IMG/VR virus record: IMGVR_UViG_3300020451_000368
Location: 1 to 24,376 of that record
Direction: 5' to 3' (one strand)
Origin: a virus
DNA: 24,376 bases
In this document: positions 2,044 through 24,376 of the stretch, piece by piece
Numbering within the stretch: the stretch's first letter is position 1
How the letters are laid out: every line of letters starts with the position of its first letter
Notes under the pieces: model-generated
The model's input: the letters and a program-made list of their open reading frames with translations, nothing else
Databases searched by the model: none
Told to the model about the DNA's origin: nothing
Position numbers and translations under genes: made by a program

Positions 2044-2462
2044 TGGCAATAGGATTAGCAACAAATACAGTACAAACAGGTGGAGGCACAGTTTCTGCAG
2101 GTACTAATATTACAGGGTTTTCTGGTAAAGTAGTTTATGACAAAGGAATTACACAAACTCCAACTCCTCGTGTATTAAGTGTACAATTCGGCGACGGATA
2201 TGAAATGAGAGTACGAGATGGTATAAATAATACTCCGCGTTCTTGGGGATTAACTTTTAATAATAGAACAAAAGAAGATATAGATAAATTATATAAATTT
2301 ATAAATACTCTAGCAAGTGTAGATACTGCAAAACTCACAGTACCTAACTCAGTTGATGGGGAGGAAACTGTAACAGTTGTGTTAGAAGGCTATAGTAGAG
2401 TACTATCATATGATAGTTATTACTCATTAACCTGTACCGCAAGAGAGGTTTTTGAACCATGA
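2043..2462 (+). CDS. M: Minor tail protein M-like
   Basis: This 139-aa protein resembles the lambda gpM family (phage minor tail protein), which sits at the distal tail tube and takes part in tip assembly. The clearest signature is the segment [20 protein letters not shown] (residues about 43-62), close to the family pattern of a Gly-Asp-Gly-Tyr loop followed by an Arg and an Asp-Gly-Ile/Val. A segment with Trp and alternating hydrophobic residues follows, and then a likely alpha helix containing [12 protein letters not shown]. The start ATG overlaps the tape measure stop (TAATG) and the 3' end overlaps the next start (ATGA), which suggests translational coupling. It is slightly longer than lambda gpM. 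Position between tape measure and L supports the call. Confidence 0.85.
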
Positions 2463-3976
2463 GCCAACCCATCGTAGGGACACTACCTGCAGAATTACAG
2501 GTTCAATCCCAGTCTAGTAGTTTAATTACGGTTTTTGAAGTCGAAGTACCTAATAGTGATATTGGAGGAGCAGGTATAGATAAATTATACTTTCACGATG
2601 GTTCAAATGGGACAGCAGATATTACTTGGTATAGCTTATTAGATGATACTAATTTTGGCTCAACTACATCTGGACACTATGGACAACAAAGTTATACTGC
2701 GTTTCCAGTAGAATCAGAAGGTTGGGAAGTTAGAGGCACAGGAAGTTTACCAAGACCTAGTGTTAGATTTGCAAATATAAATCAATATTGGAGTGCTCAT
2801 TTGAGTAATTATGATGATTTAGTAGGAGCAAAAGTGATACGAAGAAGAACTCTACAAAAGCATTTAGGTACTAACCCTCCAGTAGAATTTAACCGAGATG
2901 TCTACTATATAGAAAGAAAAACTTCTGAGACTGCCACAATGGTTGAATTTGAACTAGCAAGTGCTTTTGATGTACAAGGAATTCAATTACCACGAAGAGC
3001 AGTTATAGCGGCACGTTGCCCTTGGAAGTATAAAGATTCAGACCAAGGCGGTTGTGATTGGCCAGCAGATAATAGATTTACAATAGACAGCACAGAGTAT
3101 ACTCTTTATTTTGATAAAGATGATAATAGAGTTACTAATCATGCAGTCTGGGGCCGACAAGATGTTTCTAGTAATAGAACAAGTAACTTGTATGCAGCAC
3201 AAAGCTACTCAGTAGGGGATTATGTAGAATACTATAGACCAATAGGCGGACTCATAGCAGCGAGTGCTGTTAGTTCAGGTGCAAATATAACTTATACTGT
3301 AGCAACTGGCCATGGTATAACTGCAGGAGAGTTTGTAATTGCAAAAGGATTTACTGATGAAGATGCAAATTTTAAAGCGGTCCCGCTTTATGTAAGTAGT
3401 GTAACTTCTACTTCTATTACAATTCAAAACCCAAGTGCAACTATAACAACATCAAGCGGATACTTACAAGCTACAAGAGTTACTTTATATAAATGTATAA
3501 CGGCTCATGAACTTGCAACAGGAGACGATGCTGATGATATTATTAGACCTACTAATATTTCTTATTGGGAATTTGGAGATGTATGTGGTAAGCGATTAAA
3601 CTCATGTGCAATTCGTTATGGACATGAGCCTGCAGGAACAACAGGAGTCAAAAGTGTAATAGTAGATCAATCTACAACTGGAACAGATAATAATAAACAT
3701 ACAATTAGTGGAGGTAGTGGGTACAACGCAGCACCTACAGTAAGTTTTAGTGGAGGCGGAGGCTCAGGAGCAGCCGCAACAGCTAGTGTTTCTGCAGGCA
3801 GAGTAACATTTATTGAGGTTACTGCTGCAGGAACAGGATATACAAGTGTACCTACAGTTACTTTAACACCAACAAATGGAGGATCAGGAGCAACAGCAAC
3901 AGCTTTTCTTAATACTAGAGGCTCAAGAAATGTAGCTCTACCTTTCGGAGGATTCCCAGGAGCGGCACTAGGATAA
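2459..3976 (+). CDS. L: Minor tail protein L-like, with two extra inserted domains
   Basis: This is a tail-tip hub protein of the lambda gpL family. In that family four Cys hold an iron-sulfur cluster; here the candidates are C187 and C199 ([15 protein letters not shown]) and C376 and C383 (CGKRLNSC). The C-terminus keeps the family ending, LPFGGFPGA. At 505 aa it is about twice the length of lambda gpL. The excess is two stretches: residues about 260-342, a beta-rich domain with an [10 protein letters not shown] loop lying between the Cys pairs, and residues about 414-488, two Gly-rich repeats ([17 protein letters not shown] and [16 protein letters not shown]) between the last Cys and the LPFGGFPG ending. 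The gene overlaps M by four bases and K by one. The family call is firm; the role of the inserts is unknown. Confidence 0.85.
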
Positions 3977-4680
3977 TGATTGAACCAGTACTAGAAGATA
4001 TAAAACAATATGTTTATGAGCGTGCAAATATAGAAGCATGTGGCTTATTAAGTTTAGAAAGAGGGCGAATTAGATGGAATCCTTGTGATAATAAAGCAGA
4101 AAACCCAAAGAACGATTTTATTATAGACCCTTTAGATTACAAAGCAATTGCAGATAAAGGAGATATAGTTGGGGTAGTACACAGTCACCCTGGAGCTGCA
4201 CCAACACCAAGTGAATTAGACCGAGCTGCGTGCAATAAATTAGGAATTCCTTGGTATATTTTTGGAGAAAATGACGAATGGATAAAATTGGAACCAAGCG
4301 AAAATACTTATGAATTACTGGGAAGACCTTTCGTCTATGGTATCTATGATTGTTTCACAATCTTAAAAGACTATTTCGAGACACAGGATATAAATATATA
4401 CCCATATGACTATGAGTGGGAATTTTGGGAAAAAGGAAAAAACCTTTATTTGGACAACTTTAAAAGTGAGGGCTTTACTGAAGTAACAGATGGTAGTCTA
4501 CAGCCAAATGACGTTATTTTAATGGCTCTGAATAGTGAAATTACTAATCACGCAGGAATATATGTAGGACGTGGAAAAATGCTTCATCATGCACCTAATA
4601 GATTATCATGTAGAGATACCTATGCAGGCATGTGGAAACAGATTACAAGAATGGTTGTAAGACACCAGAGTATGATATGA
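3976..4680 (+). CDS. K: Tail assembly protein K-like: JAB/MPN metallopeptidase plus NlpC/P60 domain
   Basis: This 234-aa protein has two hydrolase domains, as in lambda gpK. Residues about 1-105 are a JAB/MPN domain. The JAMM zinc motif is HSHPGAAPTPSELD, with H69, H71 and D82, and E20 as the likely upstream Glu. Residues about 115-230 are an NlpC/P60 papain-like domain: catalytic Cys is probably C126 in IYDCFTIL, and the His is probably H192 in NHAGIYV, with a second His pair at 204-205 in LHHAPNRLS. Relatives cleave peptide bonds in cell-wall peptides and are needed for tail-tip assembly or entry. All expected active-site residues appear present, so both domains may be active. The ATGA overlap with the next gene suggests coupled translation. 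Confidence 0.88.
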   Translation: MIEPVLEDIKQYVYERANIEACGLLSLERGRIRWNPCDNKAENPKNDFIIDPLDYKAIADKGDIVGVVHSHPGAAPTPSELDRAACNKLGIPWYIFGENDEWIKLEPSENTYELLGRPFVYGIYDCFTILKDYFETQDINIYPYDYEWEFWEKGKNLYLDNFKSEGFTEVTDGSLQPNDVILMALNSEITNHAGIYVGRGKMLHHAPNRLSCRDTYAGMWKQITRMVVRHQSMI

Positions 4681-5567
4681 GAAAAGTTTATTTAGAAGGA
4701 CAATTAGGAGAGAAGTTTGGGGCAGAATGGAACCTAGCAGTAAACTCGCCTGCAGAAGCTCTTTCAGCTATTATGGCACAGCGTCCAGGTATGCGACAAT
4801 ATTTAGCATCTGCAGAAGGTGTTCAAGGCTACGAAGTATTAGTAGATAACGAATCAATTGATACGCAAGAAGAGTTAGTACTACAAAATCCAAGTATGAA
4901 ACAATCTTATACTTTTGTACCAGTAATTGGTGGTTCAAAAAGTTCAGGACTCATGATGGTATTAGGAGTAACTCTACTAGCCGCAACAGGTGGTTTAGCA
5001 GGGTTTGGTATTTCTGGATTTATGACAGGTAGTGCAAGTTTAGTAGGAGCTGAAGCAGCCGCATTAACTGCTGTAGAGCTTGCCGCAGTAGGAGGAACAG
5101 GAGCTATAGGAGCAGGTGGTTTAACAGCAGCTCAAGCTCTAGCGGCATCACAAGCGGCTGGAATAGCAGCGGGAGGAGCGGCCAAGGCCGCGGTATTAGC
5201 AACACAAGGACTTGGATATTTAGGTACAGGACTTATGTTAGGAGGAGCTGCAATGATGCTTACGCCAGATGTGCCAGACGGAACTTCCTCAGAAAAAGCA
5301 GAAAACTACTTATTTAGTGGACCAGTTAATACTATGAAACAAGGAGAGTCAATCCCTTTAGTTTATGGAAGAGCAATTGTAGGTTCAAAAACTATTTCAG
5401 CATCAATATTTACTAATACATCAAGACAAAAACTAACAGCAGGAAGAAAAATGGTAGGTATACCAAACTTCAGAACAGACGGTAGTAAATCAGGTACAGG
5501 AGCTATTACTCAAAGTGCTCCAAACAGTTGGTGGCCTGGACGAGGTAATGGAGGGGAGCTTTACTAA
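4677..5567 (+). CDS. I: Tail assembly protein I-like
   Basis: The start chosen is ATG at 4677, which overlaps the K stop in an ATGA. The frame also has an upstream ATG at 4632, but using it would add 15 unlike residues and a 49-base overlap. From 4677 the protein begins MRKVYLEGQLGEKFGAEW, the usual start of the lambda gpI family (short beta strand, small-residue turn, then the SPAEALSAI helix). The middle (residues about 100-205) is a long Ala/Gly-rich hydrophobic region. The end has the family signature YLFSGPVNTMKQGESIPLVY followed by GRAIVGSKTISASI. Lambda gpI acts in tip assembly and is not prominent in the finished virion. At 296 aa it is longer than lambda gpI. Confidence 0.82.
   Translation: MRKVYLEGQLGEKFGAEWNLAVNSPAEALSAIMAQRPGMRQYLASAEGVQGYEVLVDNESIDTQEELVLQNPSMKQSYTFVPVIGGSKSSGLMMVLGVTLLAATGGLAGFGISGFMTGSASLVGAEAAALTAVELAAVGGTGAIGAGGLTAAQALAASQAAGIAAGGAAKAAVLATQGLGYLGTGLMLGGAAMMLTPDVPDGTSSEKAENYLFSGPVNTMKQGESIPLVYGRAIVGSKTISASIFTNTSRQKLTAGRKMVGIPNFRTDGSKSGTGAITQSAPNSWWPGRGNGGELY
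5551..5558 (+). promoter_or_regulatory. Strong ribosome binding site for J
   Basis: GAGGGGAG lies inside the last codons of I, about 8 bases before the J start. It is the most purine-rich start signal in the tail block. Most neighbouring starts lean on stop/start overlap with a weak Shine-Dalgarno, so this may lift J translation independently. Confidence 0.5.
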
Positions 5568-8500
5568 TGAAAAAGAAGCAACACTTAATATCAGTTCGAG
5601 GCTCTAAAGGAAAAGGAGGAGGCGGAAGTACGTTTGAAGCAGACGATAATATGTTTGCAAGGCAGTCTGCCGCGTTTATTGATGCAATCTCAGAAGGGCC
5701 GATTAAAGGATTAGTATATGGCGACGCTTCAATTCTTATTGATGAAGTGCGTCTTAGAGATGTTAACCAAGCTACTGGTCGTATTAAAGCAACTTCAAAT
5801 TTTAATAATTTTACTCTAATTACTAAAAATGGTGACGCAACCCAAGTAGTTGATGCAGATTTCTTCGCAGAATATCCTAGTGCAGCTACTACTCAGAGTG
5901 TAGGTAGCGCAGAACTTTTAGAAAACGAGCCTCAATATTTTACTATATCTAGTGGTGCTTTTGAAAAAAGAGAGACTGATTATATAAAAATTACTATATC
6001 TACTACAGGTATGTCGGCCATTACTAAAAAGGGAGACAATAAAGGAGATATAAATGAAACTTCTGTTTACTTTACAATCGACTTTAATTGGGTAGATAAT
6101 AGTGGAGTACATCATACTCAAGAAATGTTCGATACAGGGTTTCAAGGAAAAGTTAGTGGTAAATATGCTCATACCTTTGGATTTAATATTGAAACTATAA
6201 AACGAACTTCTACAATCAATGATTGGTCAATAAAAGTAACCAAATTAGCGTCTAGTCCAGATAGTACAGACTCAATAGAGCTACAAAATGCTATTTATGT
6301 AGATAGTATAGAAGCTGCAATTGCTGATAAATTAGAATATCCTTATACCGCTTATGTAGGAGGAGTAATAGACGCAGAAGCTTTTAGTAATATTCCTGCA
6401 AGAGGTTATGAAATAGATGGTAGGTTAATACAGATTCCTACTAATCATTACCCTTGTGACTATAATGGTAGAAAGCTAACTTTAAGCGATGCTTCAGATT
6501 TTGCAGTAGGAGATGTAATAAGTCAAACACTAACTATTAGTAGTCTTACCGCATCAGGTACTGCTGAAGAAGGGTATACTGCAACAGCAACGGTACCAGC
6601 ACATGGAGTAGCAACAGGCGAAACTTTTAAAGCAACTATTGCAACTAATGAAACTCAAGATGAAGACTTTTATGAAGGAGAGTTTGTATGTACAGCTGCT
6701 TCAGGCACTACATTTACTTATACACTAAATAAACCCTTTGACGAAACTGCAAATTCAGGAGCAGGTGGGTATAAAACTTTAACTTCAACTACTTGTATAG
6801 GAACTAAAACTGCAGTTATGTTTAGCGGCGGTTTAGTTGATAAGAAAGTAGGCAATACTCTCTATCTTAGAAATGTAGCAGGTTCGACAAGTGCTGTAAA
6901 TGGTACTATTACAAATGCAGATGGAGATTCAGGAACTATTACTGCTCAAGAGCAAGTATTTATACCTGCAAACTATAGAAGAATCAAAGCTACAGAAAAA
7001 CCTGGAACTGCCGAACAAGATTGGGACGGCACATATTATTTAAGCTGGTGTAATAACCCAGCATGGGTATATCACGACCTTATAGTAAATAAAATATATG
7101 GACTAGGAAACTATGTAGATAATTCGCAAATAAACAAGTGGGAACTATTTCAAATTGGTAGGTATTGTGATGAATTGGTACCAGCAGGTGTAGCAGCAGC
7201 AGATTTATTAAGTATACATTGCACATCAGACTCTAACTATATCCCGAGTGGGTCAACTGGCGAGCATGAGCCAAGATTTAGTGCTAACTTAGTAATCAGC
7301 GGAAAACAAGAGGCTTATAAAGTACTCAATGATGTTTCCAGCATATTTAGAGGAATGGCATACTGGTTAAACGGAGAGGCTTACGTCGTACAGGATTCTG
7401 AAAAAGACCCTGTATATCAATTTACAAATGCTAACGTAATAAACGGAGAGTTTAAGTACGAAGGAACAGGCAATAAAACAAGAACAAACTCTATTATGGT
7501 TAATTGGAATAACCCCCAAGACTACTATAGAAGCAGAACAGAAATAGTAGAGTTAGAGGAAAATTTACAAAAAGATACTGAGTTTGTAAAACCAGAGGCA
7601 ACCACAGCATTTGGTTGTACTTCAAGAGGTCAAGCAAGAAGGTTGGGTAAATGGAAGTTACTCACCAATAATTGGAACACCAATACTGTAACGTTCGAAA
7701 CTTCTTTGAACGCAGCCTTTTTGCGACCTGGCGATATTATACAAGTTATTGACCAAAATAAAGAAGGCAAATCCTGGGGTGGAAGAATATCATCTAGCTC
7801 CACTACAACAGCAATCAATATAGATAGAAAACCAAGTGGATTTGGAAGCACAAGTGTTGAATCAGGGTATGCTGTTGGCGACTACAGGCTCACATTAAGT
7901 TATGTAGGGTATAGAGCAATTCTTGCACAAGATACGGCTACTATAGGAAGTACCGCGTACGTGCGAGGAGACCATCTTTCTAGTATTACTACTGAAGAAG
8001 CCGCTTCAACTTTACAAGATGATAGTGGTAATTTAGTCTTTGTACAATGGACTCCCTTTAACTTTACAGAAACACAAACTCTTTCAGGAGTATCAAATAG
8101 TGGAAAAACTTTAACAGTAGCTTCTGCTTTTAATGCGGCCCCAACTCAGGAACAAATCTGGATATTATCAAGAGCAGCACTTGCAACAGGTAAAACAAAG
8201 AAAGAAGCTAAGCTATTTAGAATGATGGCTATGGTAGAGAAAGATAGAAATAGCTATGAAATTACTGCTATGGAATATAACGCATCTAAATTTGATGCAG
8301 TTGATAAAAATGAAGCTCTTACACAATACAGAACAGTATACTTACCTGATAGTTTTAAAACAGTTCCTGCAGTAACAAATATAGATGTAGACCCTGTAAT
8401 CAGGGCTGCAGGTACAGGTGGTACAGTTAATGCTTTAATTGCGGAATGGGACCCAGCTACTAATAGTGATGGCACTTTATATACTTCAGTTAGACACTAT

Positions 8501-11500
8501 GAAGTAGAGATGTCAACAGATAATGATACTTGGCGAAGAGTAGGAACAACTACAAAAACAGACTACGAAATAATAGATACTGATAAAGCCATACTTAGTG
8601 GAACTTACTATTTTAAAGTTTATACAGTAAGCTTGAATGGGGTAAGAAGTGCTGTCGCAGAAAGTGGAGCATTAGTTGTAGATTTTAATAGAGCAGTAGG
8701 CCCAGCAGAAGGAAGTGTAGGTACAACAAACCACTATATAAACTTTATAGGTAATATCAGTACAGATTTTTCACTTGATAGTGGAAAAGTTAGTTTTGAA
8801 AATGCAAATCATTTTCATAATGATGGAAAAAATGAACACGCAGTTACTAGCCAAGCCCAGTTAGATTTTACAGGGCTAGGCACAGCAGCTGGAACTAGAG
8901 GTGCAGAAAATGTAGGTTATGTATACTTTGACCATAGTGCCAGCGCTTTCATAGCAGTAGCTTTCGACGAAACAGCAGGTCAGTTTTACATTCCTGGTAA
9001 TAATACTTTTAGTACAGCAACAGGAACATTAACAGCGAGTACCTCTGCTACTCCGAAAAAGTGGACAGGATTGGATTCTACGAACTTTGACGGTGAATTA
9101 GCACTTGGAAATGTATTTAAATATGTAAATGGTTCAAATACAAGGTATCATAGAGTAAAACGTTTCACCAGTGATTCTGAAATGTTTACTTTTCAACCAA
9201 GTAGAGATACTATTGTAGATGGAGATAACCAAGCCTTTAGTAAACCCAACTTTTTAGCAGATTATACAAATGATACTATTATGGGTAAAGTTACTAGAAC
9301 AGGTAGTGGATATACTTTACAAAAGTTTGGTAATTCACAAGGTGAATCCCCCTATTCAGTTCAAGGAACAAATGAAAGTTTTGGTTTTACTGCAGGCTCT
9401 GATGGAGTGGTTTCAAACGAAAGTGACTTTACTTGCGACTTTACAGTTACAAAAGGAACACAAGCTTATACTTTTGCTTCAAGTGGTACTGCCCAAAATA
9501 CTTTTGGTATAAGTCTACAAGCAAGAAGTGGGTTTGATAATGATGGTGATATAGTAATTAACTCATCAAGTGGGCAGATAACTATCGGGGATAGTGATAT
9601 GGACGCCGTCTCTTCTGCAACAGCAACAATGCGACTGTTTGACAGAGGGAGAGCAAATGTACTTATCGCAGATAGAATATTATCATTTAATAAATCAGGA
9701 GTAGGTACTACAGGAGCGGGAGCTAACTTTGTATTTGCAAGAGCAGCTAGCAAACCTAATGTTCCAACAGCTGATGGACTTAATATTCCTTCCGCAGATA
9801 TTCAATGGTATGATAACCCACCAACAGGCACAAATTTATTATGGGCTTCAAAAGGTACAGTAGCGGCAGGTGGAACTGCTTATAGTTGGGGTGCAGTATT
9901 TCAAGTAGAAGGTGCCGCAGTAGCTGAAATACATTGTTATTCAGATGTACAAGCAAGTAATGGTAGTTCTCCAACTAAACCAAGTAGTTCAACTTATAAT
10001 GCAACTACTTCTACTCTTACACTTAATGATTCTAATTGGAATTTAACACCACCAGCAGTATCAAATAATGGGGACTCAATATATCAATGTACTGCTCTTG
10101 TAAGTGGAGCTTCTACAGCAACGGCTATAGCAGTTACATGGACAAACCCTGTTTTATATCAAAGAAAAACAGACGGACAAGATGGTGCTACAGGTAGAAA
10201 AGTAGCGGAGCTAAGTCTCTTCTACGCATTAGATTTTACTTCTACTAATTCATTTGCAGCACCTTCAGCTCCTTCAACAGGAACGTATAATTTCGCAAAT
10301 GCAACAGTTGCTAGTATTCCTAGTGGCTGGTCTCAAACTAGAGGAGAGTTAGGACAAGGTAAATGGTACTGGGAATCAGAAGCTTTAGCAACAGAAAGTT
10401 CTACGGATAATACTTCTAATGCACTAACTTGGAGTACTCCAAGTATAGCAGGTATAGCAACTGGGGACGTAAACTTTGTATTTAAAAGGTCTGCTTCACA
10501 GCCTACAGGTGTAGGAACTACTAATTGGCCTGCTGTTCCTAGTGGCTGGTATGATGATATTGCAGATGTACCTGCGGGAAGTAATGAAATATGGGCAAGT
10601 AAAGGTACAACAGCAATGAGTAGTAGTGCACCTTATACTTTTATAACAACTTGGCAAAATGCAGTACAGATAGAGGGCTCAACTGGAGCAACAGGTCCAG
10701 AGGGTGCAGGAACAGATACTGTTTACTATTTACAAACAGGATTTAGTATACCTAGCACTCCTAGTGCAGGAACAGCAAATCCTCCTTCAGGGTGGTCTGC
10801 AACTATTCCAACAGCAGCAACAGGAAAAAGTATATGGTTCTCATTAGGAACTAAACCTGCGGGAAGCAGTACTTGGACATGGAAAGCTCCTCAGTTCTAT
10901 TTAGGAGACTTTGATTATACACTACCAGGTATTTTTGACGGTGAGTTCAATTTAAATCTGGCAGGGTCAGGACTAGCAAAATTAGGACTAAGTAATTCGG
11001 ACTATGTTAACCCAAGTGTGGCTGATATTAGGGGATATTTCTCAGGAAGTGGAATCAATACAACAACAGGAGTTATAACAGATACAAATACTACTTACTC
11101 AGCAAGTGACTTTGCAATTACAGGATTATCGGGGTACTCCGCTGGAGCTTATCTAAATTCTGAAGTAACTTATGCGGAACTACAAGGAACTAAACCACCT
11201 ACAAATGCTGAACCTAACCCAACTGTAGCTGATGTTAGAGGATACTTTTCAGGAACCGGAATCAATACGTCAACAGGAGTTATAACAAATAGTCAATACG
11301 CAGCAAGTGATTTCAATATTACGGGATTATCAGGGTATAGTGCAGCCGCATACGCTAATGCTAGTGTTGTTGCTACAGCTACCGTTGATGGTGCTAATAC
11401 AGTAGCGTGGAGTAAGTTTGCTACTGGTAACTTTAACCCAAATACAACTACTCATACTTGGTCAGTAACTTGGAAAAATGGAGCAGGTACTACACTAGCA

Positions 11501-11719
11501 ACTTCAACTGTTGTTGCTAATTTAGATACTACAAATACTGATTTAAATGCTCCTACTATAACCGCAAACGCGTCAGGAAGTGGAGTGACAAGTTCCGTAA
11601 GTGGAACAGGAACTACTGCACAAACAATAACCCTATCTAGATCCGGCTTTAATGATGTCGTTCTAAAAGCAGTCATTTATGTAGTGACGGGATTTAGTTT
11701 CAAATTTAATGGAGAATAA
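5567..11719 (+). CDS. J: Central tail tip / host specificity protein J-like, giant (2050 aa)
   Basis: The J family forms the tail tip and central fibre and binds the host receptor. The N-terminus has the Gly-rich leader RGSKGKGGGGST followed by IDAISEGPIKGLVYGDASIL, a strong J signature. A gene-internal beta domain lies at about residues 325-395 and resembles the insert in L (VPAHGVATGE loop). The next 500 residues match the J body, including the QDYYRSRTEIVE and RPGDIIQVIDQN segments. A fibronectin type III-like domain spans about 930-1045. The rest is fibre-like: five degenerate beta repeats around 1388-1780, with short collagen-like spacers GQDGATG and GSTGATGPEG, then two near-copies of a VADIRGYFSG unit near the end. 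The protein is far longer than lambda J. A strong Shine-Dalgarno-like GAGGGGAG lies just upstream (5551-5558). The C-terminal 800 residues are probably the receptor-binding part. Confidence 0.87.
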   Translation: MKKKQHLISVRGSKGKGGGGSTFEADDNMFARQSAAFIDAISEGPIKGLVYGDASILIDEVRLRDVNQATGRIKATSNFNNFTLITKNGDATQVVDADFFAEYPSAATTQSVGSAELLENEPQYFTISSGAFEKRETDYIKITISTTGMSAITKKGDNKGDINETSVYFTIDFNWVDNSGVHHTQEMFDTGFQGKVSGKYAHTFGFNIETIKRTSTINDWSIKVTKLASSPDSTDSIELQNAIYVDSIEAAIADKLEYPYTAYVGGVIDAEAFSNIPARGYEIDGRLIQIPTNHYPCDYNGRKLTLSDASDFAVGDVISQTLTISSLTASGTAEEGYTATATVPAHGVATGETFKATIATNETQDEDFYEGEFVCTAASGTTFTYTLNKPFDETANSGAGGYKTLTSTTCIGTKTAVMFSGGLVDKKVGNTLYLRNVAGSTSAVNGTITNADGDSGTITAQEQVFIPANYRRIKATEKPGTAEQDWDGTYYLSWCNNPAWVYHDLIVNKIYGLGNYVDNSQINKWELFQIGRYCDELVPAGVAAADLLSIHCTSDSNYIPSGSTGEHEPRFSANLVISGKQEAYKVLNDVSSIFRGMAYWLNGEAYVVQDSEKDPVYQFTNANVINGEFKYEGTGNKTRTNSIMVNWNNPQDYYRSRTEIVELEENLQKDTEFVKPEATTAFGCTSRGQARRLGKWKLLTNNWNTNTVTFETSLNAAFLRPGDIIQVIDQNKEGKSWGGRISSSSTTTAINIDRKPSGFGSTSVESGYAVGDYRLTLSYVGYRAILAQDTATIGSTAYVRGDHLSSITTEEAASTLQDDSGNLVFVQWTPFNFTETQTLSGVSNSGKTLTVASAFNAAPTQEQIWILSRAALATGKTKKEAKLFRMMAMVEKDRNSYEITAMEYNASKFDAVDKNEALTQYRTVYLPDSFKTVPAVTNIDVDPVIRAAGTGGTVNALIAEWDPATNSDGTLYTSVRHYEVEMSTDNDTWRRVGTTTKTDYEIIDTDKAILSGTYYFKVYTVSLNGVRSAVAESGALVVDFNRAVGPAEGSVGTTNHYINFIGNISTDFSLDSGKVSFENANHFHNDGKNEHAVTSQAQLDFTGLGTAAGTRGAENVGYVYFDHSASAFIAVAFDETAGQFYIPGNNTFSTATGTLTASTSATPKKWTGLDSTNFDGELALGNVFKYVNGSNTRYHRVKRFTSDSEMFTFQPSRDTIVDGDNQAFSKPNFLADYTNDTIMGKVTRTGSGYTLQKFGNSQGESPYSVQGTNESFGFTAGSDGVVSNESDFTCDFTVTKGTQAYTFASSGTAQNTFGISLQARSGFDNDGDIVINSSSGQITIGDSDMDAVSSATATMRLFDRGRANVLIADRILSFNKSGVGTTGAGANFVFARAASKPNVPTADGLNIPSADIQWYDNPPTGTNLLWASKGTVAAGGTAYSWGAVFQVEGAAVAEIHCYSDVQASNGSSPTKPSSSTYNATTSTLTLNDSNWNLTPPAVSNNGDSIYQCTALVSGASTATAIAVTWTNPVLYQRKTDGQDGATGRKVAELSLFYALDFTSTNSFAAPSAPSTGTYNFANATVASIPSGWSQTRGELGQGKWYWESEALATESSTDNTSNALTWSTPSIAGIATGDVNFVFKRSASQPTGVGTTNWPAVPSGWYDDIADVPAGSNEIWASKGTTAMSSSAPYTFITTWQNAVQIEGSTGATGPEGAGTDTVYYLQTGFSIPSTPSAGTANPPSGWSATIPTAATGKSIWFSLGTKPAGSSTWTWKAPQFYLGDFDYTLPGIFDGEFNLNLAGSGLAKLGLSNSDYVNPSVADIRGYFSGSGINTTTGVITDTNTTYSASDFAITGLSGYSAGAYLNSEVTYAELQGTKPPTNAEPNPTVADVRGYFSGTGINTSTGVITNSQYAASDFNITGLSGYSAAAYANASVVATATVDGANTVAWSKFATGNFNPNTTTHTWSVTWKNGAGTTLATSTVVANLDTTNTDLNAPTITANASGSGVTSSVSGTGTTAQTITLSRSGFNDVVLKAVIYVVTGFSFKFNGE
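11009..11152 (+). repeat. J C-terminal repeat unit, copy 1
   Basis: This unit encodes NPSVADIRGYFSGSGI through a GLSGYSAGAY ending. It is matched by a second copy at 11216-11353. The protein is conserved while many codons differ, so the duplication is old or under protein-level selection. Confidence 0.8.
11216..11353 (+). repeat. J C-terminal repeat unit, copy 2
   Basis: This unit encodes NPTVADVRGYFSGTGI through a GLSGYSAAAY ending. It is two codons shorter than copy 1, which has extra residues after the VIT segment. A linker of about 20 residues containing ELQGTKPPTNAE separates the two. Similar units occur in phage fibre shafts. Confidence 0.8.
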
Positions 11720-11721
11720 GA

Positions 11722-12621
11722 ATGAAACTAGCGGTCGTCGACTTAATAGATGTTACTACTAATAATAGAAATAGAGAACTACATCAAATAAAAGGAATAT
11801 GTGACGCTATGCAAATAGAGTTTATGGAGTTTCCTGTAAATGTTCTTCCTGTTAATGATTGGTTTGACTCAAATACTGTCTGTATAGTCAGAGGGTCTAT
11901 AAAAACTAGAAAGATGTGGTTAAATAAAGTGACCGACATGGAATACAGAGGCTGTACTATGGTAAATACTAGAGACTGTATGGAGCTATGTAATGATAAA
12001 TATAGATGTTATTTAGCATTAGAAAGAGCAGGATTAAATCAACCTAAAACAGTTCTTGTACCTTCCGAATATGATAATCTAATCGACTATGTAATTGCAG
12101 AAGCTGAATTAGAATATCCTTTAGTATTAAAAACTTTAGAAGGCTCTTATGGAGTTGGGGTAGCGTTAATGGAATCTCCTCTAGGATTAAAAGGAGTAAT
12201 CCAAGCTATGAATACTAAATTAGATTGGGACGGAGCACTCTTACAAAAATACTTGCCCCATGAGTTTGATATAAGAGCACATGTACTAGATGGAAAAGTT
12301 ATAGCAAGCATGAAAAGAACTCCACCCGAAGGTGACTTCAGAACTAATATTGCTAGAGGTGGAACAGGCGAAACGATAGAACTAACAGACTTAGAAATTG
12401 AGCATTGTCTAAGAGCAGCCGAGGCTGTAAATGCAAGATGGTGTGGAGTTGACTTTATTCCATCTGCAGTTAATAGAGCAAATTATGCTCCAAGAATTAT
12501 AGAAGTAAATGCAGCACCAGAAACAGGGGGAATAGAAGCAGCATTAGTAGGAAAAGAAGATTCAAACTCCGCCCCATTATTAACAGAAATAATAAGACAT
12601 TTTAGAGAAATACATGGTTAA
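11722..12621 (+). CDS. RimK-like ATP-grasp ligase
   Basis: This 299-aa protein looks like a complete ATP-grasp enzyme of the RimK (glutamate ligase) type. Such enzymes use ATP to form an acyl phosphate and join a carboxyl group to an amine. Visible motifs are the ATP-binding K137 and the Gly loop after it (KTLEGSYGVGV), the hinge segment LLQKYLPHEFDIRAHVLDGK (residues 173-192), the FRTNIARGG loop (R207, N209) and the metal site with D244, E261 and N263 in EVNAAPETGGIEAAL, close to the EVN.SPG.EGIE motif of RimK. All key residues seem present. A GGAG lies 7 bases upstream of the ATG. It sits between J and two GNAT-like genes and overlaps the first by 8 bases, so the three are probably co-translated. 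The substrate is unknown; a virion protein, a small peptide or a host target are all possible. Confidence 0.85.
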   Translation: MKLAVVDLIDVTTNNRNRELHQIKGICDAMQIEFMEFPVNVLPVNDWFDSNTVCIVRGSIKTRKMWLNKVTDMEYRGCTMVNTRDCMELCNDKYRCYLALERAGLNQPKTVLVPSEYDNLIDYVIAEAELEYPLVLKTLEGSYGVGVALMESPLGLKGVIQAMNTKLDWDGALLQKYLPHEFDIRAHVLDGKVIASMKRTPPEGDFRTNIARGGTGETIELTDLEIEHCLRAAEAVNARWCGVDFIPSAVNRANYAPRIIEVNAAPETGGIEAALVGKEDSNSAPLLTEIIRHFREIHG

Positions 12622-13234
12622 TTTAAGAATACAAGGACAAAACTTATATATGCGACCAATCCTTTTAACGGATATGGCGACTTTGCGTACCGCAATGACT
12701 GGTGTTTGGCCTGGAGATATAGTTCCTACTGAAAATGAGGGAAAAGCGTGGTGGTATGCTTGTAATAGACAAAATGAGACTTTATTTGGAAAAAGAAATT
12801 TAACCTCAACTGATAAAGGTTGGTTAAATCTAACTGTTTGCAAAAATGATGATACTATCATAGGGTTTCAAACTTTAAAATATAGAGGAACCAAAGTAAT
12901 TTCTTTTATGACTTCTATAATACCTGCTCAAAGAGGTAATAGTTATTACAAAGAAATTCATACATTAAGACATAAATTTATATTTGATAGTACAGGACTA
13001 AATGCGGCACTATCTAGAGTTACGCTTCCAACAGTTTCCTCTACTATTAACGACCCAGTAATTCACACAAATAGTACATTATATACTAGCACACATCATA
13101 CTATTGAATTTCCAAATAAAGGAGTATATGCAGTAAAAGAAATTACTAAAGCTGAATGGACAACCTGGATTGATAATTCAGCACAGTCTACTTTAAAAGG
13201 ACACACTTACACACTAACTTGGGCTAGTTCATAA
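12614..13234 (+). CDS. GNAT-like acyltransferase, first of a tandem pair
   Basis: This 206-aa protein resembles GNAT acetyltransferases, which move an acyl group from a CoA donor to an amine. It opens with a typical beta1-alpha1 segment, LYMRPILLTDMATLRTAM (residues 11-28). The central beta strands contain DDTIIGFQTLKYRG, and motif A is probably SIIPAQRGNSYYKEI, where Q106-R107-G108-N109-S110 would form the pyrophosphate-binding loop (consensus Q/R-x-x-G-x-G/A; the final small residue is Tyr or Ser depending on alignment, so the loop is imperfect). The C-terminal 60 residues hold no motif I know. It is a paralogue of the next gene, sharing the GFQ...K..GT strand, the P..RxxxYY loop and the ending KEITKAEWTTWID versus VKKADWLAWLD. 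The substrate is unknown. Confidence 0.6.
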   Translation: MVNLRIQGQNLYMRPILLTDMATLRTAMTGVWPGDIVPTENEGKAWWYACNRQNETLFGKRNLTSTDKGWLNLTVCKNDDTIIGFQTLKYRGTKVISFMTSIIPAQRGNSYYKEIHTLRHKFIFDSTGLNAALSRVTLPTVSSTINDPVIHTNSTLYTSTHHTIEFPNKGVYAVKEITKAEWTTWIDNSAQSTLKGHTYTLTWASS

Positions 13235-13917
13235 TGAAATACGCAAAACAAACTTTTCCAACTATTTATATTAAAGCTATGACTGTAAATGAAAAAGAAG
13301 CAGTACGTGATGCTTTTTCAGACTGGAGAGCAGACGGTGTTCAAATGACAGATGATGAAGCTACTACTTTAATTTATCAATGGTGTGAACAAATGAAAGC
13401 TCCAGATGCAGAATACTTTTCTGCCATAGGCGGGGAGAATGAGTATATGGTAGAACCAGACCCTGACCAGCCGTTTGGTACTTCATGGAGATACGATTGT
13501 ATTTTTAGAAAGTCAGATGATGTCTGTATAGGTTTTCAAGTAGGTAAATTTATGGGAACTAGATTTCATCATTCTATGACTTGTATACGCCCAGCGTATA
13601 GAAATCAAGGGTACTATAGTGAGCTAGGAGACCAAGGGCTAAAAACTTTATTTATAGCTTTGAAAAATGTAGAAACCTTTACTTCTAATGTGCCAGTTAA
13701 GGCAGGCACGCTCCCTTCTTCTATATATGATTTATATAATGGAGATACAGACTGGAGTGCAGGTCTTTTAAGAACACAAACACTTCTTGATAGAATAGAC
13801 CCAGTAGAGTATCAACTTTATGAAGTTAAAAAAGCGGACTGGTTAGCATGGCTAGACCTTCCTAAAAATGCAGCGATAAAAGCAGCTACCTTTTCATATG
13901 AGATATTAGACGAGTAA
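13234..13917 (+). CDS. GNAT-like acyltransferase, second of a tandem pair
   Basis: This 227-aa protein is related to the gene before it and carries the better GNAT loop. Its motif A segment, TCIRPAYRNQGYYSELG, has R123-N124-Q125-G126-Y127-Y128, close to the R-x-x-G-x-G/A acyl-CoA loop. The preceding strand, CIGFQVGKFMGTRFH, corresponds to GFQTLKYRGTKV in the neighbour. The N-terminal region differs and has extra acidic residues (PDPDQPFGTSW, about 75-85). It starts on the TAATG of the first GNAT gene, so both are probably made together with the ATP-grasp enzyme. It ends at a hairpin that appears to close the transcript. Acetylation of protein, sugar or peptide are all possible. Confidence 0.62.
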   Translation: MKYAKQTFPTIYIKAMTVNEKEAVRDAFSDWRADGVQMTDDEATTLIYQWCEQMKAPDAEYFSAIGGENEYMVEPDPDQPFGTSWRYDCIFRKSDDVCIGFQVGKFMGTRFHHSMTCIRPAYRNQGYYSELGDQGLKTLFIALKNVETFTSNVPVKAGTLPSSIYDLYNGDTDWSAGLLRTQTLLDRIDPVEYQLYEVKKADWLAWLDLPKNAAIKAATFSYEILDE

Positions 13918-19751: not shown

Positions 19752-22049
19752 ATGGCGATTTACGTAAATGACGGGGGAACGCTCCGTACTATTCGCTTTC
19801 TTGCGGTCAACGATAGTGGCACGATTCGTCGTGTCCATCACGTTTACGTTAATGATGGTGGCTCTCTAGAAGGGCCATTTGACGCTGTTCACAGTACTGA
19901 TAGAAGTACAAATACTCAAACTACTTTTATATCGGGTACACAGGAAACTGCTTTTAGCACTACTTGTACCTTTGAAACAAATAAGAATACTAGTACAGTA
20001 TACGATACTACAAAAAATACCACAACTGTATTTGATACAAGTAAATCTACAACTTCTACTTACGCAACTACTAGAAGTACTACAACTACTTTTAATACAA
20101 CTACAAACTTTACTACCACTACCACTTATAATACTACTAGAGACACAACTACTACATTTGACTCTACTACTACTTATACTACTACAACAACGTTTGATAC
20201 AACTACTACTACAACTACTGTATTCAATACTACGACTACATTTACAACTACTACAACTTATGAAACAAGTAAGTCAACAACTACTGTATACGACACTACT
20301 ACAACCTTTAACACTACGTATGACACGACGATAGAAACAAGTAGGTCAACAGGGTTTACGAATAATACTTCACAAAACACAAATACTAGTTACGCAACTA
20401 ACTTTACGAACGAAACTAGTCAAAATACAAATACTTCGTATCAGACTACTTTTACAAATAATACAGGTGCACATACAAACAACACCAATACAAGTTATAA
20501 TACAGCATTTACAAATAACACAGGTGCGCATACCAATAACACTAATACAAGTTATCAGACTACCTTTACAAATAATACAGGTAATCATACAAATAACACC
20601 AATACAAGTTATCAAACTACCTTTACAAATAATACAGGTGCTCATACAAATAATACAAATACTTCGTATCAGACTACCTTTACAAATAATACAGGTGCTC
20701 ATACAAATAACACCAATACAAGTTATAGTACATCATTTACAAATAACACAGGTGCTCATACAAATAATACAGGGTTTACCAATTCTACAAATACTTGTTA
20801 TTCAACGAATACATCATATGGTTGCCAGTTTACAAACTCTACGCACAACCATTGGAATACAAATACAAGTAGGTCAACAGCATTTACCTATAATACAGAG
20901 AGGCTGACTTCGATATTTGTTAGTCCAGAGTATAGTACAATTTTTGGTACATCATATGCTACAAATACAAGTAGAACTACAACCTTTATTAACTTAACAG
21001 ATAACCATACGAATACAAATACTTCGTATCAAACTACTTTTACAAATAATACCGCAGCACCAGCTAATAATACTAATACAAGTAGAAGTACAAATACTTG
21101 TTATTCAACAAATACAAGTAGAACTACGAGTGGAACAGTAGCTACAAACACTTGTTACTCTACAAATACATCATATGCTTGTGGATTCACAGTAGCTACG
21201 AATACTTGTTACTCTACGAATACATCATATGCTTGTGGATTCACAGTAGCTACAAACACTTGTTACTCAACTAATACCTCATATGCTTGTGGATTTACAG
21301 TATCTACAAATACTTGTTATTCTACAAATACAAGTAGAACTACTGATAATGTGACAGTATCTACAAACACTTGTTACTCTACAAATACATCATATGCTTG
21401 TGAGTTTACAAATCTTACAGCATTTAATACAAATACTACTAGGCAAACAGATGATGTAACAGTAAGTACTACTTGGAGTACTAATACAAGTAGAACTACA
21501 ACATACGAAACAACTTTCGCAACTTCTAGGTCAAGTTCAAGAGCAACTTCTACAAGTAGAAGTACAACAACTACTTTTAACACAACGAAGTCTACAGACA
21601 CTACTAGAAGTACTGAAACAAGTAAGAGTACTGTTTCTACTTATGCAACTACACTTGGAACAATTACAAGTAGAGCAACTGCTACAAGTAAAACAACTAC
21701 TTGTACTTTTGAAACAAGTACAAGTACCGCAAGTTCTAGGGCTACTTCAACAAGTAAGTCTACAACTTGTACTTTTGATACTACTAAGAGTACAACTACT
21801 ACTTTTGAAACAAGTAGTACAACGGGGTCTGTATACGAAACTAGTAAGACTACATCATCAGTGTATGATACTACTAGGGCAACAGACACAACAATTACAA
21901 CGGATCATTTGACAACTATTGCGACAGCAACAGCAACAAATATCTTTGAAAGAATAACAGCCTCTCAAGCTGGAACTATATTCGATACTGAAGTATCAAG
22001 CGCTTCTGATGTCGGAGCTTCCTATTGGGACGGTTCATCATGGAGTTAA
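19752..22049 (+). CDS. Giant Thr/Asn/Ser-rich repeat protein, probable fibre or adhesin
   Basis: This 765-aa protein has three parts. Residues about 1-45 carry three copies of a VND.G.L/I R motif (YVNDGGTLRTIRFLAVNDSG), a module found near the start of phage adhesins. Residues about 45-740 are extremely rich in Thr with Asn, Ser, Tyr and Phe. There are three successive repeat types: a 10-12 residue unit like STTTVFDTTK, with one aromatic and a charged end; a 19-residue unit, FTNNTGAHTNNTNTSYQTT; and an 18-residue unit, TNTCYSTNTSYACGFTVA, with paired Cys. A return of the first type fills the C-terminal third. The last 25 residues (SDVGASYWDGSSWS) are a different, probable tip domain. The even spacing of aromatics and Thr pairs suggests a beta-solenoid. 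I recognise no family and no enzyme motif. AGGA lies 7 bases before the start. Confidence 0.75.
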   Translation: MAIYVNDGGTLRTIRFLAVNDSGTIRRVHHVYVNDGGSLEGPFDAVHSTDRSTNTQTTFISGTQETAFSTTCTFETNKNTSTVYDTTKNTTTVFDTSKSTTSTYATTRSTTTTFNTTTNFTTTTTYNTTRDTTTTFDSTTTYTTTTTFDTTTTTTTVFNTTTTFTTTTTYETSKSTTTVYDTTTTFNTTYDTTIETSRSTGFTNNTSQNTNTSYATNFTNETSQNTNTSYQTTFTNNTGAHTNNTNTSYNTAFTNNTGAHTNNTNTSYQTTFTNNTGNHTNNTNTSYQTTFTNNTGAHTNNTNTSYQTTFTNNTGAHTNNTNTSYSTSFTNNTGAHTNNTGFTNSTNTCYSTNTSYGCQFTNSTHNHWNTNTSRSTAFTYNTERLTSIFVSPEYSTIFGTSYATNTSRTTTFINLTDNHTNTNTSYQTTFTNNTAAPANNTNTSRSTNTCYSTNTSRTTSGTVATNTCYSTNTSYACGFTVATNTCYSTNTSYACGFTVATNTCYSTNTSYACGFTVSTNTCYSTNTSRTTDNVTVSTNTCYSTNTSYACEFTNLTAFNTNTTRQTDDVTVSTTWSTNTSRTTTYETTFATSRSSSRATSTSRSTTTTFNTTKSTDTTRSTETSKSTVSTYATTLGTITSRATATSKTTTCTFETSTSTASSRATSTSKSTTCTFDTTKSTTTTFETSSTTGSVYETSKTTSSVYDTTRATDTTITTDHLTTIATATATNIFERITASQAGTIFDTEVSSASDVGASYWDGSSWS
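20451..20771 (+). repeat. 57-bp tandem repeat array
   Basis: Units start at 20451, 20508, 20565, 20622, 20679 and 20736, exactly 57 bases apart, giving about 5.6 copies of the 19-residue FTNNTGAHTNNTNTSYQTT unit. The frame is kept throughout. Synonymous differences between copies show it is not a recent simple expansion. Confidence 0.95.
21144..21414 (+). repeat. 54-bp tandem repeat array encoding Cys-paired units
   Basis: Units start at 21144, 21198, 21252, 21306 and 21363. The first three steps are 54 bases and the fourth is 57, because that unit is TNTCYSTNTSRTTDNVTVS (19 residues). Most units have two Cys, in NTCYST and YACGF. Regular Cys pairs suggest stacked turns joined by disulfides or metal. 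Confidence 0.93.
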
Positions 22050-22050
22050 A

Positions 22051-22221
22051 ATGGCAGAAGTTAAACAGAAACCAAAATATAGAAATAATGAGATTGACGC
22101 AAAATATGTAAATAATAAGATGGAAAACCTAATGGCAGCCCTCTTTGATACTATTGGCGAACAAGAAGAAAGAATTAAAGACTTAGAAAAACAAGTATGG
22201 AAGATTAGTAATAATGCTTGA
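22051..22221 (+). CDS. 56-aa coiled-coil protein
   Basis: The start chosen is ATG at 22051, one base after the previous stop; an in-frame ATG at 22009 would overlap the repeat gene by 41 bases. The protein is MAEVKQKPKYRNNEIDAKYV and a heptad-like helix, ENLMAALFDTIGEQEERIKD then LEKQVWKI (hydrophobic residues at regular spacing). It looks like a short trimeric or dimeric coiled coil, perhaps a fibre-assembly helper or attachment clip. It overlaps the next gene by 8 bases. I do not recognise a family. Confidence 0.6.
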   Translation: MAEVKQKPKYRNNEIDAKYVNNKMENLMAALFDTIGEQEERIKDLEKQVWKISNNA

Positions 22222-23089
22222 CGCTTTAAGTATAAATGAAGAATTAGGAGATATTCCAACTCACTTTATGAAATCAGGCAGTTGTATGCCACCTAAAGAG
22301 AGATTAAGTACTTTAAAAGAATTTCAAAGGCGAGTACTTCCTAAAGTATATAGAGGAGCAAAGTTTGAATTTGACTTATGGTTTAATACAAACGAACTAC
22401 GAACAATTAGAAACTGGTTGTATACAGATTTTCTAGGCGGGGGTATTTACATTCGTGTAAATACAATAAAAATAAACGATAGAGTTATGCATAGTATTGC
22501 TGATTCAGACATAAAAATAGACGAAGAAAGAATACAAAAAATAATTGATAGTTTAGAGAATAAGTACACTTTAAAATTTAATCCTTACGAATTTGATAAG
22601 GTAGTATTTCCACCAGGAAGTAATCTTATACAAGGCGGAAAGAATGTTTTAGATTGGAAAAAACTTGATAAGAAAATCGAAGACGGTTTTGTAATTAAGC
22701 CACACCCTATAACTGCTCATGTATGGGTAGCAAAATATAAAATGCGCTACGGAGCAGATAAGGTACTAGATAAAAAGGTTGGTGGACACGAACTACTTGA
22801 GAAATGTAAAGAGTTAGCTTTTTGCCCAAATAGTCAAATGGGGATAGAAGGACTCTTACTAGGAAAGCAGATTCATTCAGTAGCTACTCCAAGAGTTGCT
22901 AGAGAAAAGAATCATCTTACCTATGAAGCAATATATCAAGGCATAGCAGGAAAACCCTGCGGTTCAAAAACTGCCCTTTTAAAGATATTATCTAGTAAAA
23001 GGTCTGGCATAGTGTTTCACTTTGATGAGGACGCTGAAGAACGAGTTCAAAGATATCTTGAACAATTTTGGGAATATACAGTAAAATGA
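22214..23089 (+). CDS. Putative GT-B glycosyltransferase (KpsC/KpsS-like C-terminal half)
   Basis: The C-terminal half of this 291-aa protein resembles capsule-synthesis glycosyltransferases of the Kdo-transferase type. The key features are FVIKPHPITAHVW (K162-P163-H164-P165, the family's vKPHP nucleotide-sugar motif) and then ELLEKCKELAFCPNSQMGIE with GLLLGKQ (S207 to K217), matching the acceptor-end pattern of a Ser, then an E-A-L-L-x-G-K loop. The N-terminal half (about 1-155) is short for a full GT-B Rossmann domain and I cannot assign it. If real, it would move a sugar to a polymer or protein. It lies after the Thr/Ser/Asn-rich repeat protein and the coiled-coil gene, overlapping the latter by 8 bases. 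The next gene starts in an ATGA overlap. Confidence is moderate because only short motifs can be judged by eye. Confidence 0.45.
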   Translation: MLDALSINEELGDIPTHFMKSGSCMPPKERLSTLKEFQRRVLPKVYRGAKFEFDLWFNTNELRTIRNWLYTDFLGGGIYIRVNTIKINDRVMHSIADSDIKIDEERIQKIIDSLENKYTLKFNPYEFDKVVFPPGSNLIQGGKNVLDWKKLDKKIEDGFVIKPHPITAHVWVAKYKMRYGADKVLDKKVGGHELLEKCKELAFCPNSQMGIEGLLLGKQIHSVATPRVAREKNHLTYEAIYQGIAGKPCGSKTALLKILSSKRSGIVFHFDEDAEERVQRYLEQFWEYTVK

Positions 23090-24111
23090 TAGATATAATT
23101 ATACTAACAGAAGAATTTAACACCGAGATAACACTTAGTTCCTTGGTAAATAAATCTGAAAATTTTAGAATCCACCTATTCAATAGGAGGGGTATGCTTG
23201 CCGAAAAAATGCAACCAACTATTAAATGGGCAATGGAAAATTTTAGGGAAGTTTATAGTTATGAAACACCATTCGCTCTTAGAGGCACAAATTCAAACAG
23301 AATGGCAAGAGTATTATTACAGTTTAAAGAACATTGGAAAGACAAACAACCAAAAGGATTCCCTATTGAAAGAGTTATCGTGCATACTAGAGGCCCGAGA
23401 ATATTTAATGGTAATTTTGCAGGCAATGTACCAACAGTTAAACAAATGGGAGAAAATGTAGTTTATTTCTCAAGAAAGTATCAGTATTTTGACCATAAAT
23501 TCTATGGAAACTATTATCAAATATTAGGACTTACAGATGGGCCTTTCTTTGCAAAGAAAGATGTTGTAGAAAAAGACTTTTTACTTATTAACTGGAAATA
23601 CTTTAAAGAAAAACCAAATTCTTTCTTTTTCAAAAATGGAAAAGCAACAAGACAAATGAATTTAAGTAAGAGAATGTCTCAGGTATCAGGCGTACCTCAA
23701 AGACCTTTACATGATACAGACTCTTTTATATTGTCTGCAAATGATGATGTAATATTTGAACATATGAAAGGAATGAATCATGGCTATATGCCACTATACT
23801 TTGATATGAGAGTAGACGAGTTAATTAAGAGGGAAGCTATAGGTCCAAAGGATACTATGAATCATCATACTATGATGAGAAAAGCTTTCTCAGTAAATAT
23901 AGACCAAGAAGACTTATGGACTGATTATTACGAACAACCTACTTTGTTCTATATGGCAGTACCGTGGGATATGTGGACTAGTTTAATTGATGATATTCCT
24001 TTAAACTTAAGAAGAGAAGCATTAAATGAAAGAATGTTACAAAAAGCCGATAAACAGAAAAAATACCTTCGCAAAGTAGTAGAAGCGGGGTATTTATTAG
24101 GTAAGATATAA
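23086..24111 (+). CDS. Unrecognised 341-aa protein
   Basis: The start is ATG at 23086, overlapping the previous stop in ATGA; an upstream ATG at 23068 would add six residues and a longer overlap. It begins MIDIIILTEEFNTEITLSSL, a short beta strand then helix, which loosely recalls GT-A glycosyltransferase openings, and has an acidic SFILSANDDVIF segment (about 240-250) that might act as a metal site. These resemblances are weak, and a glycosyltransferase role is only a guess helped by its neighbour. The protein contains no Cys, is rich in Lys, Phe, Tyr and Met, and ends in a basic helix containing ERMLQKADKQKKYLRKV. The next gene starts on its TAATG. Confidence 0.7.
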   Translation: MIDIIILTEEFNTEITLSSLVNKSENFRIHLFNRRGMLAEKMQPTIKWAMENFREVYSYETPFALRGTNSNRMARVLLQFKEHWKDKQPKGFPIERVIVHTRGPRIFNGNFAGNVPTVKQMGENVVYFSRKYQYFDHKFYGNYYQILGLTDGPFFAKKDVVEKDFLLINWKYFKEKPNSFFFKNGKATRQMNLSKRMSQVSGVPQRPLHDTDSFILSANDDVIFEHMKGMNHGYMPLYFDMRVDELIKREAIGPKDTMNHHTMMRKAFSVNIDQEDLWTDYYEQPTLFYMAVPWDMWTSLIDDIPLNLRREALNERMLQKADKQKKYLRKVVEAGYLLGKI

Positions 24112-24376
24112 TGTCTATATCTAATAAGCTCAGACTTCTTAAGAAACTATGGTTTTACGAAGAAGGAGCTGAAGGCAACACAGATTTAGCTGGTCAAATT
24201 GTTTTTGAATTTGCTTCAAAAAAGCAAGACCAAATAATAAAAGACTGGTGTAAAACACCTACCGGCCAGCGATATCTCGCAGGCGAAAGAATAATTGATA
24301 ATATCGAAAGATTTAAAGATAGAGACCCCAATACTCTAGGAGCAAAATACCTTCAGTTCTTAGAAAAGTATGATTT
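24111..24376 (+). CDS. coq4: Coq4-family protein, N-terminal 88 residues (cut by window end)
   Basis: The frame opens at ATG 24111 on the previous stop and runs to the last base. The 88 visible residues match the front of Coq4, a ubiquinone-biosynthesis protein. The TPTGQRYLAGERII segment (49-62) fits the family's P.G..LL...P.I pattern, and NTLGAKYLQFLEKYD (74-88) fits the TLG..Y..FL motif. In the Coq4 family a later HDxxH motif binds zinc; it would lie beyond the window. Coq4 helps form or act in the ubiquinone-making complex. The call is fairly firm from two motifs in the right order and spacing, although the essential half is missing. It is an unusual gene for a phage tail region. Confidence 0.75.
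   Translation, partial: MSISNKLRLLKKLWFYEEGAEGNTDLAGQIVFEFASKKQDQIIKDWCKTPTGQRYLAGERIIDNIERFKDRDPNTLGAKYLQFLEKYD

Follow-up and report, generated by a model that had tools for sequence, protein, structure and literature searches.

Cells employ the protein Coq4 in making coenzyme Q (CoQ), a respiratory lipid. To our knowledge it was for a long time the CoQ protein to which no reaction had been assigned, and the C1 action of the human protein is a recent finding. Human COQ4 catalyses the C1 oxidative decarboxylation (PMC11495197) and the motif HD(x2)H(x11)E is required for COQ4 function (PMC9774615). For the homologue Alr8543 the original structure was reported to hold geranylgeranyl monophosphate, and the current one oleic acid (PMC9774615). 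On the viral side, ubiG has been proposed as an auxiliary gene of phages among Baltic Sea viruses (PMC9301287), and our literature search found no paper linking Coq4 with viral auxiliary genes.

The window analysed here is the whole stretch of 24,376 nucleotides of the record IMGVR_UViG_3300020451_000368, a linear IMG/VR fragment whose right end cuts a Coq4-like open reading frame. The phage branch of the Coq4 family to which this gene belongs is real and uncatalogued in the collections searched, and constitutes an accessory metabolic gene with a putative function.

Gene content of the window

The features of the window and the complete coq4 genes used for comparison are collected in Table 1. 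At position 24111 the sequence TAATG joins c2 to coq4, the ATG of the latter sharing its A with the TAA stop of the former, which confirms the translational overlap with the preceding phage gene reported in the first-pass annotation.

Table 1. Coordinates of the features described in the window and in related viral loci
Feature	Location	Strand	Remarks
Lambda-type tail tip genes	Window 2459..11719	+	Minor tail L-like, NlpC/P60+JAB K-like, tail assembly I-like
RimK-like ATP-grasp gene	Window 11722-12621		Adjoins tail genes; Pfam 7.5e-32
Weakly GNAT-like ORF	Window 12614-13234		After the RimK-like gene
227-aa ORF	Window 13234-13917		No Pfam match
Very low-complexity Thr/Ser/Asn-rich repeat protein	Window 19752..22049	+	765 aa
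Small 70-aa ORF	Window 22009..22221	+	Overlaps both neighbours; cluster c10
c1, PHROG 26179 protein with invariant KPHP motif	Window 22214..23089	+	Capsule_synth match, weak
c2, predicted GT-A-fold glycosyltransferase-like protein	Window 23068..24111	+	Stop overlaps coq4 start (TAATG)
coq4, 5' part	Window 24111..24376	+	88 codons (24111-24374); 3' end open at contig end
coq4, complete, in L001	L001 5001-5669		222 aa; Pfam Coq4 2.7e-8, 33.8 bits
coq4, complete, in L002	L002 5001-5690		229 aa; Pfam Coq4 1e-6, 28.6 bits
Coq4, example of the T4-like group	L172:5001-5810

The gene preceding coq4, c2, is a core gene of this phage group and was identified at 48 loci in a scan made with it; its translation may in fact begin at a later ATG (MIDI...). 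The AlphaFold model of c2 had a pLDDT of 87 and its best Foldseek matches were glucosyltransferases of the UGGT/glycogenin class (E 7e-7, TM about 0.42-0.45). For c1 a glycan role may be inferred from the weak Capsule_synth match. The cluster of the small ORF, c10, comprises ORFs of like size and start sequence located at the same position in related contigs. The repeat protein, probably a virion appendage, has equivalents of about 770-1580 aa at the same position in related contigs. Its repeats are extremely rich in Thr, Ser and Asn, with TNTSYQTTFTNNTGAHTNNT-like units, and it lies directly 5' of the putative glycosyltransferase genes; it is a candidate glycosylated virion appendage. Among the lambda-type tail tip genes a 2050-aa ORF sits in the place of J, as judged by its position.

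Family assignment of the coq4 gene

The Pfam model of Coq4 (PF05019) has a curated cut-off of 22.9 bits. The 88-aa fragment encoded in the window reached 13.1 bits (E 0.059), below this threshold, and its score against CSF-1, a cytokine, was slightly better than its Coq4 match. The original call of Coq4 was a good reading from thin evidence, since the similarity of the fragment to Coq4 is weak and below the cut-off, and the fragment by itself is insufficient for the assignment. An identity with CSF-1 was rejected as a chance match: the full protein gave E 0.041 for CSF-1 and 2.7e-8 for Coq4.

Two complete relatives were identified in a scan of viral contigs: L001, 99% identical to the window fragment over 87 aa, and L002, 84% identical over 88 aa. 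Both exceed the Pfam cut-off (Table 1) whereas the fragment does not, and the family membership is upheld through them. All the clade members searched (10/10) matched Pfam Coq4 at E <= 0.01, the lowest score seen being 23.4 bits, above the cut-off. The NCBIfam search gave no match for the phage Coq4-family protein.

As the metal motif falls outside the window, past its right end, it was read in these relatives, 99% and 84% identical to the fragment over the shared part. Both proteins contain HDFTH-(x11)-E, corresponding to HD(x2)H(x11)E, so that the HDxxH motif and its downstream Glu, which the first-pass annotation had proposed to look for in the full protein, were found; the motif is invariant in the 15 of 15 phage members aligned. 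When these were aligned with 25 main-type alphaproteobacterial proteins, H119, D120, H123 and E135 were invariant in both groups, and D117, V124, G127, Y128, G134, Y80, F83 and R206 were also largely common to the phage proteins and the main cellular clade. The phage clade has invariants of its own (W46, R54, Y55, R138, E146, G147, W150, Y189, F195 and N203), and its conserved positions outside the shared set mostly differ from the 25 cellular Coq4 proteins compared.

An AlphaFold model built on the alignment of 15 phage members (mean pLDDT 78.6, pTM 0.77) was compared with the PDB by Foldseek. The sole significant matches were 6e12 (Alr8543; E 8.5e-5 and 2.6e-4, TM 0.66-0.70) and 3msq, a Nostoc punctiforme protein with a putative role in ubiquinone biosynthesis (E 4.1e-4), the next one being at E 1.5. 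The sequence profile of the clade retrieved from the PDB only Alr8543, aligned on the motif at E 0.33, and in the single-protein search of the PDB CSF-1 ranked over Alr8543, none of the matches being significant. By profile, metal motif and all-helical fold, the gene at the window edge is a true member of the Coq4 family.

Phage residence and lineage

Motif-pattern and alignment scans of IMG/VR identified 28 distinct contigs of this coq4 clade; a partial 29th (L074) was added afterwards, the window being number 30. The gene order does not vary among the contigs reaching far enough, and up to coq4 it consists of tail-fibre genes, the giant Thr/Asn-rich repeat protein, c1, c2 and coq4 itself. 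Beyond coq4, on the other strand, lie c3 (GT29-like, Pfam 1.3e-5, convergent to coq4), the optional SDR and radical-SAM genes, nrdB and nrdA, the last two coding for ribonucleotide reductase. A single slot is occupied by coq4 in every contig that carries it and shows both sides, and the stop codons of coq4 and c3 overlap, or nearly so, leaving no room for a host junction. The gene belongs to the phage genome, as had been proposed from the window, flanked on either side by phage genes in the coq4-carrying contigs of sufficient extent. Host DNA beyond an attachment site, the alternative named at that time, was rejected by the synteny of the relatives, given the phage genes through nrdB/nrdA and the overlapping stops.

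The lineage carrying coq4 is, as judged on related contigs and not on the window, one of uncultured T5-like phages. With Pectobacterium phage My1 and with T5-like phages of Vibrio, the TerL of a coq4-less relative of 102.9 kb shares about 50% identity. A coq4-carrying contig of 48 kb codes for a family A DNA polymerase, a primase-type protein and a D12-like recombination protein whose identity to T5-like phages is 36%. Further accessory genes were seen in these phages. An asparagine synthase with glutamine amidotransferase domains was identified both in this 48-kb contig (L147/L148) and in L153; the proteins of the former include AhpC/TSA and glutaredoxin, and the latter encodes a sulfotransferase. 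As for clues to the host, the tRNA search gave a single tRNA-Ala, located in a relative lacking coq4, and the G+C content of about 34-39% is not decisive.

No PHROGs family matched the phage Coq4, and none of 50,697 deposited phage records matched five Coq4 queries (three clade members, one T4-like and one cellular). The remark of the first-pass annotation that this is not a standard phage gene agrees with both results.

Optional presence, exchange and selection

The 48 loci of the c2 scan include some without coq4. One such set (L066-L069, L078, L083-L085, L088, L089 and L096) presents between c2 and c3 a slot of 137-138 nt, in which a small ORF spans about 40 codons; this slot alternates repeatedly with coq4. 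In a more distant coq4-less set c2 and c3 overlap directly. The presence of coq4 on the c2 tree (31 rows) needs 7 changes, at least 5 of them forced by well-supported branches. Because the c2 of the window is nearest to those of the coq4-less L078 and L069/L083 (up to 81% identity), while its coq4 start resembles that of L003 (95% DNA identity over the 266 nt of coq4 covered, 98-100% over 24172-24351), the gene looks like one exchanged by recombination at the c2/coq4 junction. Beside coq4, the c2 genes of the window and L003 are about 53-83% identical in 60-nt steps.

Between members of the coq4 clade dN/dS was 0.06-0.28 (Nei-Gojobori), and therefore the gene is maintained under purifying selection. 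The glycosyltransferase-like c1, c2, c3 and c14 occur with and without coq4, whose presence is independent of every sampled neighbour. An obligate partnership with the glycosyltransferase-like or the SDR/radical-SAM genes found no support, as these occur in both situations. The coq4 gene is an optional accessory gene, repeatedly swapped among these phages.

Phylogeny and cellular relatives

The 15 T5-like phage proteins (15/15) form one clade with a support of 100/100 in two trees, and so stand separate in the comparison with bacterial Coq4 that had been suggested for the window gene. The branch leading to this clade is very long, about 2.6-3.1 changes per site in the two trees. The best named cellular matches are alphaproteobacterial, with 27-33% identity over the matched segments. 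No clade member was identified among 385 Alphaproteobacteria and 399 Pseudomonadota, a sample confined to the latter phylum, and a single-protein search of genome contigs gave no match. Complete clade members score about 290-375 bits and the best cellular protein 62.7 bits; these samples therefore revealed no close cellular donor.

Coq4 homologues were present in 18 of 191 sampled Alphaproteobacteria (about 9%), and one bacterial genome contained up to 6 Coq4 places. E. coli and Caulobacter vibrioides are ubiquinone users, whereas Synechococcus elongatus makes plastoquinone and not ubiquinone; among 14 control genomes including these three, only S. elongatus had a Coq4 match. The suggestion that the gene points to a ubiquinone-using host is not supported in the form given, in view of this distribution, in a plastoquinone maker, absent from two ubiquinone users and in just the 18 Alphaproteobacteria mentioned. 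With Coq4 in about 9% of the sampled Alphaproteobacteria and in cyanobacteria, the gene alone shows neither a ubiquinone-using host nor a ubiquinone function.

A second group of viral copies was reached through L013, one motif match, which lies in a T4-like myovirus with Portal_T4, gp15-like and tail sheath genes. The scan with the L013 protein gave 45 loci in uncultured T4-like phages (L013/L172 and L173-L216), with the order TerL, Coq4, tail sheath in every locus showing both sides. The metal motif is intact in 43 of the 43 loci covering it and the Pfam E values range from 8e-19 to 5e-23. The tblastn ranges of L184, L191 and L211 contain a stop in translation. Since this group is apart from the T5-like clade in both trees, two acquisitions by phages would be the simplest reading, on trees not well enough rooted for proof. 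Three other contigs classed as viral, L005 (150-kb), L008 (361-kb) and L012 (46-kb), contain Coq4-family genes scoring above the Pfam cut-off; in the two trees L005 and L008 group with the T4-like copies, and L012 is placed among the alphaproteobacterial proteins.

Proposed function and alternatives

The reading that we favour, at a probability of about 0.42, is that of a Coq4 protein with an intact metal site, encoded by an optional auxiliary metabolic gene of T5-like phages and acting on or supporting the quinone making of the host. Such an auxiliary role in quinone chemistry and respiration is the leading hypothesis and a plausible one from the sequence comparisons. The predicted ligands of the phage protein are a metal and, at the host membrane, a polyprenylated aromatic lipid. 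It would perform the reaction of its class as human COQ4 does, acting on a prenylated benzoate precursor by oxidative decarboxylation/hydroxylation at C1; alternatively it would support the quinone-making proteins of the host. In this way the quinone pool and respiration would be sustained during the production of phage DNA and virions. The substrate may differ from the cellular one, because the clade is very divergent and has, beyond the metal site, invariant residues peculiar to it. The 41 sampled proteins of two coq4-carrying contigs contained no other quinone-synthesis domain, and the Coq4 homologues of bacteria making no ubiquinone were counted against the quinone role.

Other roles for the same fold were weighed against this one. 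Acting on the quinone or membrane side, coq4 could be directed against the host or against rivals: it could, for instance, deplete or alter the quinones of the host, block its quinone-making proteins or keep superinfecting phages out. A patchy and often exchanged gene (5-7 switches) in a slot that otherwise holds the small ORF of about 40 codons fits a conflict between virus and host or between viruses; patchiness is also possible for metabolic accessory genes, however, and an intact metal site in a gene under purifying selection points to an enzyme and not a decoy, so that we consider this role rather unlikely. The protein could also be a Coq4-fold metal protein with a non-quinone substrate, as perhaps are many bacterial Coq4 homologues, several divergent copies being common in bacterial genomes (the 6 places mentioned) and the phage clade having its own invariants. 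The metal site and the eight further positions listed above are common to the main cellular clade, though, and a non-quinone substrate is unlikely in our estimation.

A third possibility is that the fold serves as a binder or modifier of a polyprenyl lipid for c1, c2 and c3, for example in handling a lipid-linked sugar that would be attached to the cell surface or to the Thr/Asn-rich appendage of the tail. It is fair to raise it because c2 is GT-A-like and c3 GT29-like; coq4 is translationally coupled to the first and always adjoins the second, and the Coq4 fold holds prenyl or lipid chains, as indicated by the Alr8543 structures with geranylgeranyl monophosphate or oleic acid (PMC9774615). 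We give it a low probability all the same, as the glycosyltransferase-like genes are kept in contigs without coq4 and therefore are independent of it. Moreover, the ends of convergent operons often receive unrelated accessory genes and are common landing sites for them. Finally, host DNA beside an integrated phage, or a chance resemblance of the 88-aa fragment, could be argued from the score of that fragment under the Pfam cut-off. Its probability is negligible: the full-length relatives are over the cut-off, phage genes continue on both sides wherever the coq4-carrying contigs extend far enough, and the samples of 385 and 399 bacterial genomes contained no clade member; the synteny has already refuted it.

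Extending the favoured quinone role to both groups of phages, T5-like and T4-like phages, which are unrelated, may each have taken up and kept a Coq4 enzyme that steers the respiratory quinone chemistry of the host, a statement that we make tentatively, as possible and not as probable. If true, it would mean a viral control over respiration of a class not shown by deposited phage genomes. Should the protein act on quinones, respiratory quinone synthesis would join the host functions encoded by marine phages. Being small and having a complete metal site, the phage protein would be a simple test object for the fold alone, if it works outside the CoQ complex. The matched relatives with and without coq4 at the swapped slot also permit asking which hosts or conditions favour the gene.

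Comparison with known systems

The closest described structures are those of Alr8543 (PDB 6e12) and 3msq, which share with the phage Coq4 the all-helical fold (TM 0.63-0.70 over about 220 columns) and, in the case of Alr8543, the HD(x2)H(x11)E motif. Both are cellular (cyanobacterial) proteins with an identity of 18% or less, and unlike them the phage proteins present after the motif the clade-specific EGxGW and DWFxxLGxxINxVRxNLxT. The alphaproteobacterial Coq4 proteins (Kordiimonadaceae, Hyphomonadaceae and Novosphingobium) provide the best named matches and have the metal site in common, but in the trees the phage proteins stand apart from them as a clade of their own (support 100/100), at the end of a very long branch. 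The Coq4 of T4-like phages resembles that of the T5-like clade in being phage-borne, located among structural genes and intact in its metal motif; it differs in belonging to another clade nearer to cellular Coq4, in its slot (TerL/tail sheath) and in the phage lineage. Human and yeast COQ4 belong to the same family and the motif is essential there (PMC9774615), a likeness by family and published motif; unlike the phage protein they are mitochondrial and act within the CoQ complex. The ubiG of Baltic Sea phages is, like the phage coq4, a member of a ubiquinone-synthesis gene family proposed as auxiliary, although it represents a different enzyme and a different step.
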